Shown here: positions 1 through 50,454 of the stretch, in pieces
Layout: every line of letters starts with the position of its first letter
Numbering within the stretch: the stretch's first letter is position 1
Source: an uncultured Dehalococcoidia bacterium
Lineage (GTDB): Bacteria > Chloroflexota > Dehalococcoidia > Lucifugimonadales > GCA-2712585
Reading direction: 5' to 3'
NCBI GenBank assembly: GCA_958295715.1
Contig: OY282371.1
Span: forward strand, 1,969,697 to 2,033,696
Length of the DNA: 64,000 nt
Made by a program: the position numbers and the translations under genes
Notes under the pieces: generated by a model
What the model saw: only the letters and a program-made list of their open reading frames with translations
Databases searched by the model: none
Told to the model about the DNA's origin: nothing

Positions 1-782
1 CCGGGGCCACCGTCGCAGTAGACTAGGTACAGCTTCAACCACTCATCCACGCTCAGGGTTCCCGGCCGGCGGCTCGGCTCGATTCCCGCCCTGTCCAAAA
101 GCCCTCCGGCCTCACCGGGCGGCGTCGACAGACCCAGGGCAAGCGAATTCCTAAGCTGCTTGCGCGGAGCGGCAAAGCCGGCCTGGGCCAGCTTAAAGAA
201 CCGCGGCGCCTGGTCCGGCCCCAGCTTGGGGCTAGGGAACACGTCTATCCTCACCACGGCGGACTCCACCTTGGGCGGGGGCCGGAAGGCGCCGGGCGGC
301 GCGACGCACACCACCGAGGGCGCGCCGTAGAGCTGCACCGCCACCGATAGGAGGGTCATCCTGCCCGGCGGGGCCGCCATGGCCTGGGCAACCTCCTTCT
401 GCACCGTCACCACCATGAGGCGGGGCTTGACCGGCGCCTCCAAGAACCGCCGCACCAGGGGGTTGGCGGCGTAGTAGGGCAGGTTAGCCACCACCTTGTA
501 GCCCGGTGGCAAGACTCCCAGGTCCGCCGTCCGAGCGTCGGCGTGGACTACGGTGAGGTTTGAGGGATTCCCCAGGATGGAAGGCAGGGCCGCGGCCAGG
601 ATTGGGTCTATCTCCACGGCCGTCACGTGTCCGGCCCGCCGCGCCAGTTCCCGGGTGAGGACGCCGCGGCCCGGTCCCACCTCAACCACGGCGTCTCCGG
701 GGGACAGGTCGGCAGCCTCGATGATGCGGCGCAGGACGCCCCGGTCCGCCAAAAAGTGCTGGGCTAGGGCCTGACGCGGCAT
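1..782 (-). CDS. rsmA: 16S rRNA (adenine(1518)-N6/adenine(1519)-N6)-dimethyltransferase, 3' end cut by window edge
   Basis: RsmA/KsgA dimethylates two adjacent adenines in the 3'-terminal helix of 16S rRNA during small-subunit maturation, using S-adenosylmethionine. The translation from ATG at 782 begins MPRQALAQHFL, the family's N-terminal signature. It shows the SAM-binding loop VEVGPGRG (residues 34-40), an acidic VEIDP and the catalytic motif NLPYY (100-104). About 260 residues are visible without a stop; the family is usually 260-290 residues, so little is missing. The gene lies downstream of the SRP RNA on the same strand. No alternative assignment is likely. Confidence 0.95.
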   Translation of the reverse strand, partial: MPRQALAQHFLADRGVLRRIIEAADLSPGDAVVEVGPGRGVLTRELARRAGHVTAVEIDPILAAALPSILGNPSNLTVVHADARTADLGVLPPGYKVVANLPYYAANPLVRRFLEAPVKPRLMVVTVQKEVAQAMAAPPGRMTLLSVAVQLYGAPSVVCVAPPGAFRPPPKVESAVVRIDVFPSPKLGPDQAPRFFKLAQAGFAAPRKQLRNSLALGLSTPPGEAGGLLDRAGIEPSRRPGTLSVDEWLKLYLVYCDGGP

Positions 783-864
783 ATCGGCCCTGCGGAGGGG
801 GTTGGTAGAGGCCGTGCACCTTCCTTCGACACAATCATCGGACTTATTCCACTGGTCAAGCTCA

Positions 865-962
865 GGTCAGGCGCTCCCACGGCGCCCGAGGGTGTCTGCT
901 TACCGTTGCTTCCTTCCGGACCTGGCGGGATTCACAGGCCCTCGCCGCGTGGGACCCAACCA
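865..962 (-). ncRNA. ffs: Bacterial small signal recognition particle RNA (4.5S type)
   Basis: Read on the minus strand, the segment contains the conserved apical loop of SRP domain IV, with the GGTCCGGAAGGAAGCA core around 906-921. It is flanked by arms that pair: CCCACG..CGAGGG on the 5' side with CCCTCG..CGTGGG on the 3' side. This is the Ffh-binding hairpin used for co-translational targeting of membrane proteins. The ends are placed at the limits of visible pairing and could move by a few bases. rsmA starts about 80 bases downstream on the same strand. Confidence 0.93.
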
Positions 963-1174
963 TCAACGCCCTTGCAGAGGAGCAGGGGTCCTCTAACCTA
1001 GCCTGGGGAAGGGGTTCAGCCCCGCTGTAGCGGATTGCGAGTACAGGGCACCGCTAGCTCCCCGCCTAGCACAGCCTCCCTTTAATGGTAGAGGGAAGGG
1101 CGGGATGGTGTCAAATAGGTTGGCCAATAGGTTGGATGGATGGACTGCCGTTAGAATCCCCAGGCCCGGCGGTG

Positions 1175-22691: not shown

Positions 22692-22714
22692 CCCGTCCAA
22701 AATCTAATTAGGCG

Positions 22715-22892
22715 TCCTATCAGGAGCCTCAACGCGAGTTGGGGAGAATAGGGAAGGCGGTGAGAAGCCGCCGCGGTAGCGCCACTGTAAGCGGAACTGC
22801 CGAGCCGACGTCCACTGGCCCTCCGGGGCGCGGGAAGGGCGCCGGCGCACACGAGACCGCGAGCCAGGAGACCTACCTGATACGGACCGGTG
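22715..22892 (+). promoter_or_regulatory. Cobalamin riboswitch
   Basis: The conserved elements occur in order: GGGGAGAATAGGGAA, the GGTGAGAAGCCGCCGCGG arm, GCCACTGTAAGC, and the B12-box-like GCGAGCCAGGAGACCTACCT near 22860-22879. This aptamer binds adenosyl- or other cobalamins and normally lowers expression of uptake or synthesis genes. The downstream genes encode a three-part importer of the cobalamin/iron-complex class, so the substrate is very likely a corrinoid. Confidence 0.9.
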
Positions 22893-22951
22893 AAAGCTCT
22901 TCGCGTTAAGGAGCGTAGCCGGGAGTCCCTGCAATCTCAAGGCTCCTACTT

Positions 22952-45399: not shown

Positions 45400-46005
45400 C
45401 CCGGCCCCCCCTTCAGGCTTTTTCCGTCATTCCCGCCCTCCTTCCCGTCATTCCCGCGCAGGCGGGAAGGGCGCGTGCGCCCACTTAAGTTTTGAAGAGC
45501 GTTGGCTCTGCGTTGGGGTCTTCCCGATTCTGGCCCGCCAGCCGTCATCCACCTCCTTTCCGTCATTCCCGCGTAGGCGGGAATCCATCCCCCCCTTCCC
45601 TCGCCAGTGTTGCGCCGGCACAACCCGCGCCACGGCGCGCCACACCCCCCTCGCCATCCGTCCGTTCGGCAAGGGGCCGGGCTCGCTAAAGTCGGAGCCT
45701 GTCATAGCGATGTAGCCTTCCTGGATTCCCGTTTTCACGGGAATGACGGAAAGGAAGGGGGGAATGACGGATAAGAGGGCGGGAAGGACTAGACGGGAGG
45801 GGGAGCCAGGAATGGCGGGTGGCCCCACGCAACCGACCCGGAGGGGATGGATTCCCGTTTTCACGGGAATGACGGAATCGAGGCGGCGGCCAGGAATGGC
45901 GGGCGGTCCCACGCAACCGACCCGGAGGGGATGGAGGCACGCCTGCGCGGGAATGACGGAAAGGAGGGGCGGGTGGGCGGACGCCGCTCGGCCGCCCACG
46001 CCCCC
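45400..46005. repeat. Repeat-filled intergenic region
   Basis: About 600 bases without a gene. It contains an extended copy (about 45448-45512), a GCGTAGGCG-core copy near 45562-45590 and two GTTTTCACGGG-core copies (about 45722-45750 and 45847-45876). A damaged copy lies near 45935-45961. A 50-base direct duplication (CGAGGCGGCGGCCAGGAATGG and GGAGGGGGAGCCAGGAATGG, each followed by CGGG and CCACGCAACCGACCCGGAGG) lies around 45795-45930. Confidence 0.8.
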
Positions 46006-46010
46006 CACTG

Positions 46011-46049
46011 AAAAGGGAAGACCCCCCGGTTGGGGGGTCTTCCCTTTTT
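46011..46049. terminator. Bidirectional intrinsic terminator
   Basis: Stem AAAAGGGAAGACCCCCC / GGGGGGTCTTCCCTTTTT with a 4-base loop, T tracts on both strands. It should end the minus-strand transcript of the 1162-residue protein and any plus-strand transcript from the MBL-fold gene. Confidence 0.9.
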
Positions 46050-46073
46050 GGCTTACTTATGCAGCCCGGAGGG

Positions 46074-49000
46074 TTAGGGGATTATGACCCCGTCCTCGTT
46101 GGCGTACACGAAGTACCCTTGTCCGACTTCCAGCATCCTGCTGGGGTCATCCGTGGTTCCGGCGGTCTTCGTAACCTTGGCGAAGATCCCCGCCACGGTG
46201 TCGTAGCCGTAGGCCACGTCCCAGTCGATGTTGGCGAAGTAGTCGTTGGCGGGTACCGTCGCGCCCACCGCGCGCTGCTGCACGTCCACTATCGGAACCA
46301 GGTTCCAGCCCTTGTAGACCTCTATGGCCGGAGGCAGCACCGTGAGTTCGCTGGATGCCGGGAGCAGTATCTCCAGGTCCAGTTGGTCATCGGACACCAC
46401 CCAGTAGGCGTGCCGTGAGTCGATGGTCTCCAGGTTGCCCGTGAACTGCCCGTCGCTGCCGCGCCTGGCCACCTGCCACAACCCGGTGGGGTTGTCGTAG
46501 GTCATTACCAGGCTTATGGCCGTCTCTGCTCCGAACACGTCGTTCACGTCGCCGCTGGCCGGGTTGGCCGGTATGGAAACCAGGTTGGAGCCGGGGTCGA
46601 TGTGGACCTTGTAGGGCTTGCGCTCCGTCACCTTAAAGGCGCTGGTCCAACTCTGGGTGTTGCCCGCCGCGTCGCGTCCCGTCACCTTCAGGGTGTAGGA
46701 ACCCAACTCCAGGCTGCCGGGCCTCCAGATGTGCAACACGTTGTCTCTGCTGCTGAAGTTCTCCATGACGTCGGTCGTGTCGTATCCGGGGCCGTCCAGG
46801 GTAGCCTTCGTCAGCGTCACCGTGGCGCTGGTGTCAAAGTCGGTGGCGATGTTGTCGGAGACCGTGGTGTGGTCGCGCCTCGGGAAGTCCTCTTCGCCGT
46901 CGGCGATCGCGTCCAGACCGTATTCCTTGCCCTCGTTGGTGAAGGCTATCTTAAGGAACACGTTGGGGTCGTCGGTCTCGCCCTTGTCCTCCGGGGTAAA
47001 GGTGGGGGTGGGTATCCCCGTGTCCACCTCAATCAGGATGGGGTTGTCGTCAGCGATGGACTCGTTGTCGAAGTCCGCCGGGGCCACGCCCTTAACGCTG
47101 TCGATGCTGCCGCCCTGGTCGGTGCCGGTGACGTACACGTTGTACAGTCCGGCGGTGGTCAGTTCCACCTCAAACTCCCACTCGTTGGCCGTTCCTGTGG
47201 GTCTGCCCGTGCCGGAGGCCTTGTTTGCCCCGGTGCTGGTCTTGCACGGGTCGGTGTCGGCGGCCTCATCGCCGGATGACACGAGACAGTAGTCGTCGAA
47301 GACCTGGTTAACTTCAACGTTGGGCCTGCTTCCAAGCCTCTCGTCCGATTCAATGGTGACCGTAACGGTCTCGTCCGTCACTGGGCGGGAGCCGGGCATG
47401 GCGGTGCCGGTAACCGTCACCGTCAGAATCGCGGGCATCCCATCCTCGGCCGTTTCCACGTCGTCATCCAACTCGTTGCCCGCCAGGTCGGTAACGGTGT
47501 CCACCACCTCAACCCTGGGGGTGTCGTCCGGGTCCATCTCGGAAACGGTCAGGAAGACCCGGTTTTTGTGGTCCGCATGGCAGGTGACGGCGCTGGGCTC
47601 GTCGTTGTCAACCTCAAAGTCAGAGGTCGAAAAGCTGGCGCAGTCCATGTTCTCGCTGAACATCGCCATGACGCTGGTCCTGATGGCGTCGGGGCCTTCC
47701 TTAATGGTCTTCCCGTCAAGCCAGGGGCCTGCGGTGGCGCTCACGAGTCTGGGGTCCTCCTCGTCCACCCTGACCACGTAGGGGTCGCAGCCGGCCAACG
47801 CGTCCATGTCGTCTTCGTTTGCTGAGGCGTTATCAATGGGCAACCTCAGGTCCGACTGGAAGGGCACGCAGACGCCCTTGGTGGCGGTCTGGCTCGATCT
47901 GGTAAGGGTGAACTTCCTGTCAACCGTCAGGGTCTCTTCGTCGGTAATCGTCTCCACTATCCGGGTCTGGCCGGCGATGGTGAGGGTGTCACCAACGGAA
48001 AGGTCGGCGGTGAAGTCCGTATTGCTGGTGCCTTCAACCTCATCGCTGTCATTGGTGATTTTCATGCGACCGGCGATGGTCTCCTGGCCCTTCTGGTCGC
48101 TGAGGCCTATGTTGCCGGCCTGGTCCACGGCCCTAACCCACCAGTGGATCTCGTACTCGTCGTTGTTCGCCGGGTTCAGGTCGTCGCTTGTGCCTGAGCC
48201 GCTTCTGAAGCTGGCCGTAACCTCAAACCCGTTGGTTATGGAGTCCTCATTTTCAAAGTCCCCGCGCGTCACCTCAAAGGGGCCGTCAATCCAGCCCCCG
48301 TCCGTGTCGTACAGGGCGAAGATGAAGCTCATGCTGTCGTCGTCGTCGTCGTCGTCGAGAATCTTGGACTCCCCATCCCTGACCTCCACGGTGAAGTCCG
48401 GGTCGTCTTCAGTGCCCGCGGCGTTGTGGCCCGGGTTGAAGCCGTCAAAGGCCGGGGTAGCCGACTCAATGGTGACGGTGTCGCTGCGGGTGCCACTGGG
48501 GCTGGCGTCCCTGTACTCCACCCTCAAGGTGTCGCCCGACCCGTTGACCGCTATGATGGGAACGTCTGAACCGTCGGGGCTGCTTGTGGGGCTGGTCCGG
48601 CAGCCGCTCTCCGCCTCATCGCAGATGTTCACGGCGAGGCCGAAGACGCCGGTGGTCCGCCCGGTCTCCGTCAACGTGACGCCGATGCCTGTGCTGTCCG
48701 CGTTGCTCTTCAGTATCACCTCAGACCTCTTTTGGGCCGGGGTTGCGTCGTCGTCGTCCGCGGTGAACTGGGTGCCCACGGTGTTCGCGGCGCTGTGCCA
48801 GAAGAACACCTTAAACACGCTGTTGGCTCCTATTGCGCTGGTGTCCCCAATGTCCACACGCCCGTTGGCGATGTCTATCCTGACGGTGTATGTGGAGGGA
48901 AGCGACTTGCCATCAACGGTCGTCACCTTCACGTCCGAAGCGTTCACCAGACCGTCCGTGGAGCCGGTGAACCTTTTTCCGTAGTCCTGGTCGCCTTCCT

Positions 49001-49562
49001 TGGAAGAGTCATGGTCGGTATCCGAGCGGGCGTCGGAGTTGGCGGTGCCAAGAAAGGCTTCCGGCACTGTGTTCACGGCGCTGGTAAAGGAGCCCAAACC
49101 GCTGTCCACCGTGTATTGGAGGTTAGGCACTACGAAGGAACCCGTAGCGTTAGCCAATATCGCACCGGTGGTGATCGTTTCCGCATCCCTGCAGACGCCG
49201 CAGTTTTCGAGAAGGCCGCCCGCGGCAATCTCATCTTGCGCGGGGTCGGTAGGTGACGAGCCTAGGTTGCCCATCTTTAGACCTATCGCCTTAAGGGGGA
49301 CGTTTAGGTCTTGGTCCTCCACCTCCACCCAAACCCTAGCGTAGTCGGTGGTGTCGCCGTCAGCGTCTATCTCGTAGGGCGACGCATAGGGGCTGGCGTG
49401 GCTGATGCTGCCGCCGCGCCCGTCGCTAGGAGTAACAGCGCGGAACTCCGCGCTACCTCTGTCTGCGCTGGAAGGGGCCGCCAAAATGGGCAGAGCCCAC
49501 ATTAGCCCCGCCAGCAGGGTTACCAGTAATCCGGGGATTATCCAGGTCGTTTTGCGTGTCAC
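46074..49562 (-). CDS. Large secreted acidic S-layer-like protein
   Basis: A 1162-residue protein with an N-terminal signal peptide (TTWIIPGLLVTLLAGLMWALPILAAP). It is strongly acidic and rich in Thr, Asp and Gly, with a run of eight aspartates near residue 405 that could bind calcium. Several segments look like bacterial Ig-like folds (DPRLVSATAGPWLDGKT..., VDEEDP, SYTLKVTGRDAAGN). The C-terminal 150 residues carry two GWNLV-type modules (PGSNLVSIPANPASG, YKGWNLVPIVDV). No catalytic motif is seen. The GTG start at 49562 overlaps the stop of an 18-codon ORF. An S-layer or adhesin role is inferred from composition and size. Confidence 0.7.
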   Translation of the reverse strand: MTRKTTWIIPGLLVTLLAGLMWALPILAAPSSADRGSAEFRAVTPSDGRGGSISHASPYASPYEIDADGDTTDYARVWVEVEDQDLNVPLKAIGLKMGNLGSSPTDPAQDEIAAGGLLENCGVCRDAETITTGAILANATGSFVVPNLQYTVDSGLGSFTSAVNTVPEAFLGTANSDARSDTDHDSSKEGDQDYGKRFTGSTDGLVNASDVKVTTVDGKSLPSTYTVRIDIANGRVDIGDTSAIGANSVFKVFFWHSAANTVGTQFTADDDDATPAQKRSEVILKSNADSTGIGVTLTETGRTTGVFGLAVNICDEAESGCRTSPTSSPDGSDVPIIAVNGSGDTLRVEYRDASPSGTRSDTVTIESATPAFDGFNPGHNAAGTEDDPDFTVEVRDGESKILDDDDDDDSMSFIFALYDTDGGWIDGPFEVTRGDFENEDSITNGFEVTASFRSGSGTSDDLNPANNDEYEIHWWVRAVDQAGNIGLSDQKGQETIAGRMKITNDSDEVEGTSNTDFTADLSVGDTLTIAGQTRIVETITDEETLTVDRKFTLTRSSQTATKGVCVPFQSDLRLPIDNASANEDDMDALAGCDPYVVRVDEEDPRLVSATAGPWLDGKTIKEGPDAIRTSVMAMFSENMDCASFSTSDFEVDNDEPSAVTCHADHKNRVFLTVSEMDPDDTPRVEVVDTVTDLAGNELDDDVETAEDGMPAILTVTVTGTAMPGSRPVTDETVTVTIESDERLGSRPNVEVNQVFDDYCLVSSGDEAADTDPCKTSTGANKASGTGRPTGTANEWEFEVELTTAGLYNVYVTGTDQGGSIDSVKGVAPADFDNESIADDNPILIEVDTGIPTPTFTPEDKGETDDPNVFLKIAFTNEGKEYGLDAIADGEEDFPRRDHTTVSDNIATDFDTSATVTLTKATLDGPGYDTTDVMENFSSRDNVLHIWRPGSLELGSYTLKVTGRDAAGNTQSWTSAFKVTERKPYKVHIDPGSNLVSIPANPASGDVNDVFGAETAISLVMTYDNPTGLWQVARRGSDGQFTGNLETIDSRHAYWVVSDDQLDLEILLPASSELTVLPPAIEVYKGWNLVPIVDVQQRAVGATVPANDYFANIDWDVAYGYDTVAGIFAKVTKTAGTTDDPSRMLEVGQGYFVYANEDGVIIP

Positions 49563-49615
49563 TTCGCCTCCCTATCAATCTGAGTTTCAAGAACCAACCT
49601 GCCGGTATCTGTCAT
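49559..49615 (-). CDS. Candidate 18-residue leader peptide, coupled to the S-layer-like gene
   Basis: The frame reads MTDTGRLVLETQIDREAK, starting at ATG 49615 after an AGGAGGA site. Its TGA stop overlaps the GTG start of the large gene as GTGA. A strong ribosome-binding site on a tiny coupled frame suggests translation coupling or attenuation. It might be a chance frame; conservation in relatives would decide. Confidence 0.4.
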   Translation of the reverse strand: MTDTGRLVLETQIDREAK

Positions 49616-49865
49616 AGACCATCCTCCTATAGTCTGATGCTTTTTCGCACCAGTGAGGGGTCGGGTTTGATGTGAAAACAAAGGAAAAAAGAGTATTCCA
49701 TCCTTGTCCCCCCCTGGCGCGGAGTTCCCCAAGCCGCTGTGTGTCATTCCCGTTGACACCTTCCATAGATTATAAGGGCAAGCGGTGGGTTTAGCCACCT
49801 GCCCCTAATTAGTCCATCGGTACTCTACACAACCTTAATTGCCGTTGTCAAGTGGTATTTCCCAA
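49616..49865 (-). promoter_or_regulatory. Leader and promoter region of the S-layer-like gene
   Basis: On the minus strand, TTGACA (49851-49846) and TAGAGT (49827-49822) with an 18-base spacer form a good promoter, giving a leader of about 250 bases. A second TATAAT at 49774-49769 has a poor -35. The leader is AT-richer than its surroundings. No known riboswitch was recognised. Confidence 0.55.
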
Positions 49866-50454
49866 GGCTTTTGCAAGATTATACGCCTATTTTCGCCCTA
49901 TGCCACCCCCCTTTGGACGCGTCTTTTGAGGGAAAGGGGGCCGCTCCCTATCGCCGCCCCGCCAGCCTCTGCCCCTGCCCGCCATGCCGGCCATCGGCCC
50001 GCCCCGCCCGCCATACCCGCTCTTGCCCCGCCTCGTCATTCCAGCCTTCTCTTATCCGTCATTCCCGCCCCTTCCTATCCGCATTCCCGCCCCCTCTTAT
50101 CCGTCATTCCCGCGCAGGCGGGAAGGGCGCGTGCGCCCACTTTGTTTTGAAGAGCGTTGGTTCTGCATTGGGGTCTTCCTGAATTCCTGCCCCTTGTCCG
50201 TCATTCCCGTGAAAACGGGAATCGCGAAACCCTACATATCTATTATAGAGGTATGACTGTAACCGGCCAGGCCCTTAGGGACAGGAATGAGGGGAGGGGA
50301 GGGGGGATAAGGCCGGGATGAGGGGCAACCGGCCGCCTTTTGATTTTTGGCCGATAATCCCTTACTATTAAATATGCAGCGACACGGGCGGGTTTCCCCA
50401 CGCGGCCGCCCTTAGGCCGCGCAGAACACATTCAGGACGTGGATTGACACTATA
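49866..50454. repeat. Intergenic region upstream of ftsH with repeat copies
   Basis: Half copies begin near 50036. An extended copy lies at about 50101-50165 and a GTGAAAACGG-core copy at 50199-50222. The 50330-50380 stretch is AT-rich (TTTTGATTTTTGG, TACTATTAAATATG) and may hold the ftsH promoter. A TTGACACTATAATG run immediately before ftsH has no proper spacer and is probably not a promoter. Confidence 0.65.

Follow-up and report, generated by a model that had tools for sequence, protein, structure and literature searches.

The stretch of DNA analysed here (the window, 64,000 nt of contig OY282371.1 in assembly GCA_958295715.1, positions 1,969,697 to 2,033,696) belongs to an uncultured Dehalococcoidia bacterium and carries on its minus strand a gene for a large secreted-type protein that we call surface-layer-like (S-layer-like). 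The gene is preceded by two short open reading frames (ORFs) in a row, ORF1 and then ORF2, each with its own Shine-Dalgarno (SD) or SD-like site (Table 1). The original prediction had described the 18-codon ORF2, with its AGGAGGA site and a GTGA overlap with the large gene, and these features are confirmed at the positions given in the table. It had also proposed a leader of about 200 bases, in agreement with a sigma-70-like promoter whose position would place the start of transcription about 200 nt before ORF2 and about 250 nt before the GTG. The control by translational coupling that it suggested fits the data presented below; the account was incomplete in that the peptide of ORF2 is not conserved, whereas the earlier ORF1, which had been missed, is the conserved element of the leader.

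When leaders of the genus and family were aligned, ORF1 stood out as a block that is better conserved than its surroundings and is read in frame. In total, 90 leaders were extracted and 16 were dropped before counting (unsure start or short leader), leaving 74 usable leaders in 35 families. ORF1-type leaders are present in 21 of these, from 12 families of SAR202-type Dehalococcoidia, where ORF1 starts 128-147 nt ahead of the S-layer-like gene and has a length of 42-49 codons in most families. The peptide consensus is R-A-D-P-S-x-V-P-R at about residues 9-17, with D-P-S as its most constant part, although some leaders have G-P or S-P in place of D-P. For example, the peptide is MHYFLFVRHSRADPSAVRVSIRR in G001, MDSIVLHLPRADPSLVPRS in G006, MYSSSGFSVPPRADPSLVPRSGP in G051, MDLSSFVRILARADPSRVPRR in G053, MDLSRHLSRADPARVPGRARSPGV in G170, MFLASYHSRAGPKRLSW in G038 and MHYSSYGTFRLDPSVVPRAR in G063.

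Three tests bear on whether ORF1 is more than a chance frame. In the first, 25 arrest-peptide motifs listed by Fujiwara 2024 in the methods section (PMC10987492), with one stop-ending entry omitted, were scanned against the first 30 residues of SD-led ORFs, with 300 dinucleotide shuffles as a control. A listed motif occurs in 18 of the 74 leaders and 10 of the 35 families, whereas the 300 shuffles averaged 0.62 leaders and never exceeded 4; the reversed list gave 2 leaders, the swapped list 3 and the other two frames 3 each. This list supersedes a regular expression, R.[DGS]P (18/62, shuffles 0.5), that had been devised after seeing the data. In the second test, codon changes were compared between the head and the tail of ORF1. 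Between G146 and G147, codons 1-18 show eight synonymous changes and one non-synonymous change, and codons 19-44 three and twelve (Fisher p 0.002); between G248 and G249, the head shows three and none against none and nine in the tail (Fisher p 0.005). The pair G248/G246 behaves alike (three and none against none and eight), but is from the same family and not independent of G248/G249, and G249/G246, with only two differences, is not independent either. The head of ORF1 is thus held as a peptide, while the tail is only kept open. A synonymous count among RADPS-only sequences was not used, because it is biased by how the sequences were chosen. Moreover, the conserved block is codon-phased, with mean column identities of 0.80, 0.89 and 0.57 at codon positions 1, 2 and 3. 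The third test relied on a model built from sequence alone, with 12 leaders as its training set and the window excluded. In the whole genome of the window, it ranks ORF1 of the window highest (E 0.017), and in G002 the two leaders of that genome take the top two places (E 0.095 each). Comparison among relatives therefore shows selection on ORF1 at the peptide level.

Weak full-length matches of the same model led to a new family, that of G198. In this genome, an ORF1-type sequence (MHVGVFCFISLLLDPSMVPRPQQELYM, L216, about 413-487, minus strand) precedes a different signal-bearing protein by 206 nt, and a protein search listed no relative of the S-layer-like protein in the family; the ORF1-type leader may thus be able to move between wall-protein genes. 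Of the matches of a second model built for this family, that in G198 alone rose above noise, and this genome is a training member. A further weak match, MHSIFSIPPRADVSLPSLLDS (L221 in G091, about 1024-1063, minus strand), is near the ORF1 consensus and lacks an SD-like site and D-P. Nine other weak matches read by eye gave no SD-led D-P-S ORF, most lying within longer open frames. Among the matches listed for 294 genomes, none from outside the order fell below E 0.001; in this search, the strong match in the own genome is a training sequence. Members of another order of the class have a conserved SD-led ORF of a different sequence, MH(S/A)(Q/R)EPWQSRSPTG, ahead of the S-layer-like gene, namely L161, L164 and L181-L183 (G341, G313, G255) and L165 (G376). 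In L161 and L164 (G341, G313), this ORF and the gene share one frame, and the sequence may there be an N-terminal extension rather than a separate ORF.

The small ORFs also form a chain that reaches the start of the S-layer-like gene. A chain was counted when ORF1, or ORF1 followed by an SD-led ORF with its start close to the stop of ORF1, ended within 12 nt of the gene start, and the control shuffles randomised the region between ORF1 codon 20 and the ribosome binding site (RBS). The start is reached in 19 of 20 leaders with a recognised ORF1 (shuffle mean 9.6, maximum 14 in 500) and, when families are counted, in all 11 representatives (shuffle 6.3), a value attained by none of 1000 shuffles. 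Fourteen chains are direct, and five pass through a second ORF (the window, G001, one copy in G002, G052 and G170). The SD site, start, length and GTGA overlap of ORF2 are kept in all four same-genus leaders compared (three genomes), a count that excludes a third gene of G002 (L015) with a divergent upstream region. Its peptide drifts, the species differing by 0-2 synonymous and 9-12 non-synonymous codon changes, and ORF2 is absent from G005 and G006, which belong to other genera of the same family. Absence of this ORF from close relatives, which the original prediction had named as a reason to abandon it, is seen at the level of the family but not within the genus. A drifting peptide of fixed length and overlap that is absent from these two genomes fits the expectation for a coupling device and not that for a functional peptide. 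With the chain in 19 of 20 leaders and the GTGA overlap in four of four, translational coupling by the leader ORFs is well supported by the comparison of relatives. In G002, two tandem S-layer paralogues have nearly identical leaders, and in one of these leaders (L016) ORF1 and ORF2 are joined into one frame by an additional base.

The comparison also reveals conservation of the promoter and of the start site. Promoters resembling TTGAC..GTAnA lie upstream in 44 of the 74 leaders, and between -22 and +4 a GTGA start is found in 63, GGGGG in the 22 bases before the start in 60 and GGGGGTAG in 34. With this unusual RBS (GTGA, GGGGGTAG), two reading frames have stop codons next to the start.

Table 1. 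Features of the S-layer-like gene and its leader in the window
Feature	Position	Strand	Remark
Sigma-70-like promoter, TTGACA-18-TAGAGT	49822..49851	-	10/12 matches; TTGACA at 49851, TAGAGT ending at 49822
SD-like site of ORF1, purine-rich, AGGGGGGG	49708..49715	-	
ORF1, 24 codons, MEYSFFLCFHIKPDPSLVRKSIRL	49627..49701	-	comparison with R-A-D-P-S-x-V-P-R of relatives
Hairpin AGACTAT-AGGAGG-ATGGTCT, ORF2 SD in loop	49616..49635	-	stem changes on both sides in G001, G002
AGGAGGA, SD of ORF2	49622..49628	-	overlaps the TAG stop of ORF1 (49629-49627)
ORF2, 18 codons, MTDTGRLVLETQIDREAK	49559..49615	-	TGA stop overlaps the main start as GTGA (49562..49559)
GGGAGG, SD of S-layer-like gene	49567..49572	-	inside ORF2
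S-layer-like gene (secreted protein, 1162 codons, GTG start)	46074..49562	-	N-terminus signal-peptide-like by inspection
C-terminal domain, conserved, internally duplicated all-beta fold	46077..46646	-	predicted structure, mean predicted local distance difference test (pLDDT) 89.7
Terminator-like perfect inverted repeat 3' of the S-layer-like gene	46008..46051	not assigned	

We consider it rather probable that the S-layer-like gene is controlled by a leader relay with pausing, running from ORF1 to the gene either directly or through ORF2. Ribosomes would be recruited to ORF1, whose short product is under selection for its amino-acid sequence; after termination they would go straight to the S-layer start, or through ORF2, ending at the GTGA and then reinitiating. 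Translation probably slows down or stalls at the conserved segment of ORF1, some 100 nt ahead of the S-layer start, and such a pause would set the number of ribosomes reaching the wall-protein gene and the lifetime of its mRNA. Several observations weigh against this reading. No ORF1 was recognised in 53 of the 74 leaders, nor in any of the five held-out leaders of the same order with a usable start (the held-out set comprised 20 loci, five without a start). G006 is an exception, with an ORF1 and no chain to the start, and an A after GTG is partly expected from the second residue of the protein, which is K, R, S, N or T. A ribosome block of 33 nt modelled at the D-P codon shifted the predicted exposure of the RBS both ways among 17 leaders. 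Finally, the ORF1 of the window reads K-P-D-P (Lys-Pro for Arg-Ala) where others read R-A-D-P, and carries no listed motif of the SecM/RAPP class (SecM, ApcA, ApdA, ApdP), and Arg is irreplaceable in ApcA, ApdA and ApdP (PMC12992588). An attenuator with an RNA switch is not claimed, as folding showed no consistent freeing of the S-layer RBS.

A more specific form of the leader relay is possible, and we propose it only tentatively: ORF1 may encode minimal arrest peptides, in which a SecM/RAPP-like core 9-12 residues from the start would pause the ribosome on a small signal and feed the relay to the main wall-protein gene of SAR202, some lineages, including that of the window, having lost the Arg and kept only the relay. 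The likeness to the SecM/RAPP class lies in the R-A-x-P core, represented here by R-A-D-P, R-A-G-P, R-A-S-P, L-A-G-P and T-G-P-P, all of which belong to the set queried by Fujiwara 2024; L-A-G-P, R-A-D-P and R-A-S-P occur in upstream ORFs (uORFs) clustered with SecM (PMC10987492). Arrest in this class takes place with proline in the ribosomal A site (PMC10951299). There are also clear differences. In the tabulated leaders the core lies so close to the start that the chain is too short to exit the ribosome, ORF1 has no export signal, its target is a secreted wall-type protein and not the Sec or YidC machinery, and the core continues as D-P-S-x-V-P-R. ORF1 thus has neither the N-terminal localisation signal nor the spacer of more than 30 residues required in PMC10987492, and with its core so near the start it cannot be an ordinary secretion monitor. 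That cores of this type can also respond to signals unrelated to secretion is shown by CruR, a uORF with an R-A-P-P core that senses copper (PMC9426467). Nearer to ORF1 in geometry is ErmBL/ErmBL2, with two short leader ORFs and an early stall at an Asp codon, codon 10 (PMC8274638); it acts by drug-induced translational attenuation, however, and the leaders studied here showed neither a drug signal nor an RNA switch.

Alternatively, ORF1 and ORF2 could be a constitutive antenna that only loads ribosomes and raises S-layer translation by reinitiation, with no pause and no signal. The chain to the gene start in 19 of 20 leaders, the absence of an RNA switch in folding and a stop-start spacing that suits reinitiation all agree with this. 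Indeed, in reinitiation leader genes, too, a short ORF stops close to the start of the structural gene (PMC4833913), although here the first peptide is conserved and some families have a two-ORF relay instead of a single ORF. We find this explanation unlikely, because it accounts neither for the peptide-level hold on codons 1-18 with a drifting tail nor for the match to arrest motifs.

An early Asp-Pro could also act through intrinsic ribosome destabilisation, as has reportedly been proposed for a Salmonella leader ORF before an Mg2+ transporter gene. The constancy of D-P-S in ORF1 and the precedent of a small ORF that aborts translation (PMC8092293) would be in keeping with a ribosome that aborts early and leaves the downstream site open. 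This is very unlikely, however, given that G-P or S-P replaces D-P in some leaders and that the frames remain open up to the S-layer start in most families, which would be unexpected if ribosomes quit early.

It is more improbable still that the conserved block is a structured RNA, a riboswitch or protein site with incidental ORFs. The SD site of ORF1 can pair with the GACCCCTC block in the genus, and the AGGAGG of ORF2 is displayed in a hairpin loop with stem bases altered on both sides in G001 and G002, which is suggestive as a comparison of three genomes only. On the other hand, the only Rfam match on the leader strand, to a clustered regularly interspaced short palindromic repeat (CRISPR), is at chance level (E 3.2) and outside the leader, the folding z-score of the whole leader is only -1.8, and the leader gave neither a described cis-regulator family nor covariation, its conservation being codon-phased instead, so that this explanation is largely refuted. 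A candidate element with a stem of CCAGGRGRGG and CCCTC.CTGG and a possible ATGC/GCAT pseudoknot was dropped on account of the codon phasing. The SLH motif, a riboswitch candidate, is likewise a conserved leader element ahead of S-layer-type genes (PMC6429828), but it is an RNA structure of Synergistaceae and Firmicutes, whereas the element described here is a coding one. Least credible of all are chance ORFs in a GC-rich leader: the stops in two frames from GTGA and GGGGGTAG let about half of the shuffled leaders chain as well, yet the motif-list, sequence-model, chain and codon-change tests contradict them.

The name S-layer-like is a label by inference, reasonable but unproven. It agrees with a large multi-domain protein with a signal-like N-terminus whose family has members in 133 of the 250 genomes of the order, within a clade, SAR202, that is reported to have S-layer walls and no peptidoglycan (PMC11994032). 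No SLH or known S-layer domain was matched above cut-off in Pfam or NCBIfam, either with the whole protein or with its C-terminal domain. Some details of the original prediction were less exact: the aspartate run comprises seven residues (403-409) and not eight, the immunoglobulin-like (Ig-like) parts exist as weak matches below the Pfam cut-offs (Big_5, E 0.0039; Big_13, E 0.046), and of the GWNLV modules there is one GWNL (1085), the other segment being GSNL (991). The duplicated all-beta domain corresponds to the C-terminal 190 residues and has no relative in Pfam, NCBIfam or PDB. Two of 20 members of the domain weakly match Kelch_1 (best E 0.0028), and the best structural hit in PDB (E 0.014, template modelling score (TM) below 0.25) was rejected. 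The domain also matches archaeal and WOR-3 genomes. Short inverted and direct repeat families (TTCCGTCATTCCCGC...) flank the gene on both sides (45420-45981 and 50037-50226) and resemble scattered palindromic elements or miniature inverted-repeat transposable elements (MITEs). Elsewhere in the window there are a cobalamin riboswitch (22705-22894, plus strand) and a bacterial large signal recognition particle (SRP) RNA (812-1074, minus strand).

The literature searched (SAR202/Dehalococcoidia, S-layer, leader peptides, uORFs, coupling and arrest peptides, with supplements outside its scope) contains nothing describing these leaders and nothing on the control of S-layer synthesis in SAR202. Leader-peptide control and coupling are known as kinds; the ORF1 peptide family, its S-layer-like target and the two-ORF relay are new. 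SAR202 are abundant ocean bacteria with an S-layer wall, and a leader conserved at the peptide level ahead of a wall gene offers a direct and cheap way to test how the cell sets its output of wall protein. If the proposed control is true, the range of arrest-type leader peptides would be widened to include very short chains and a target that is structural and non-Sec.

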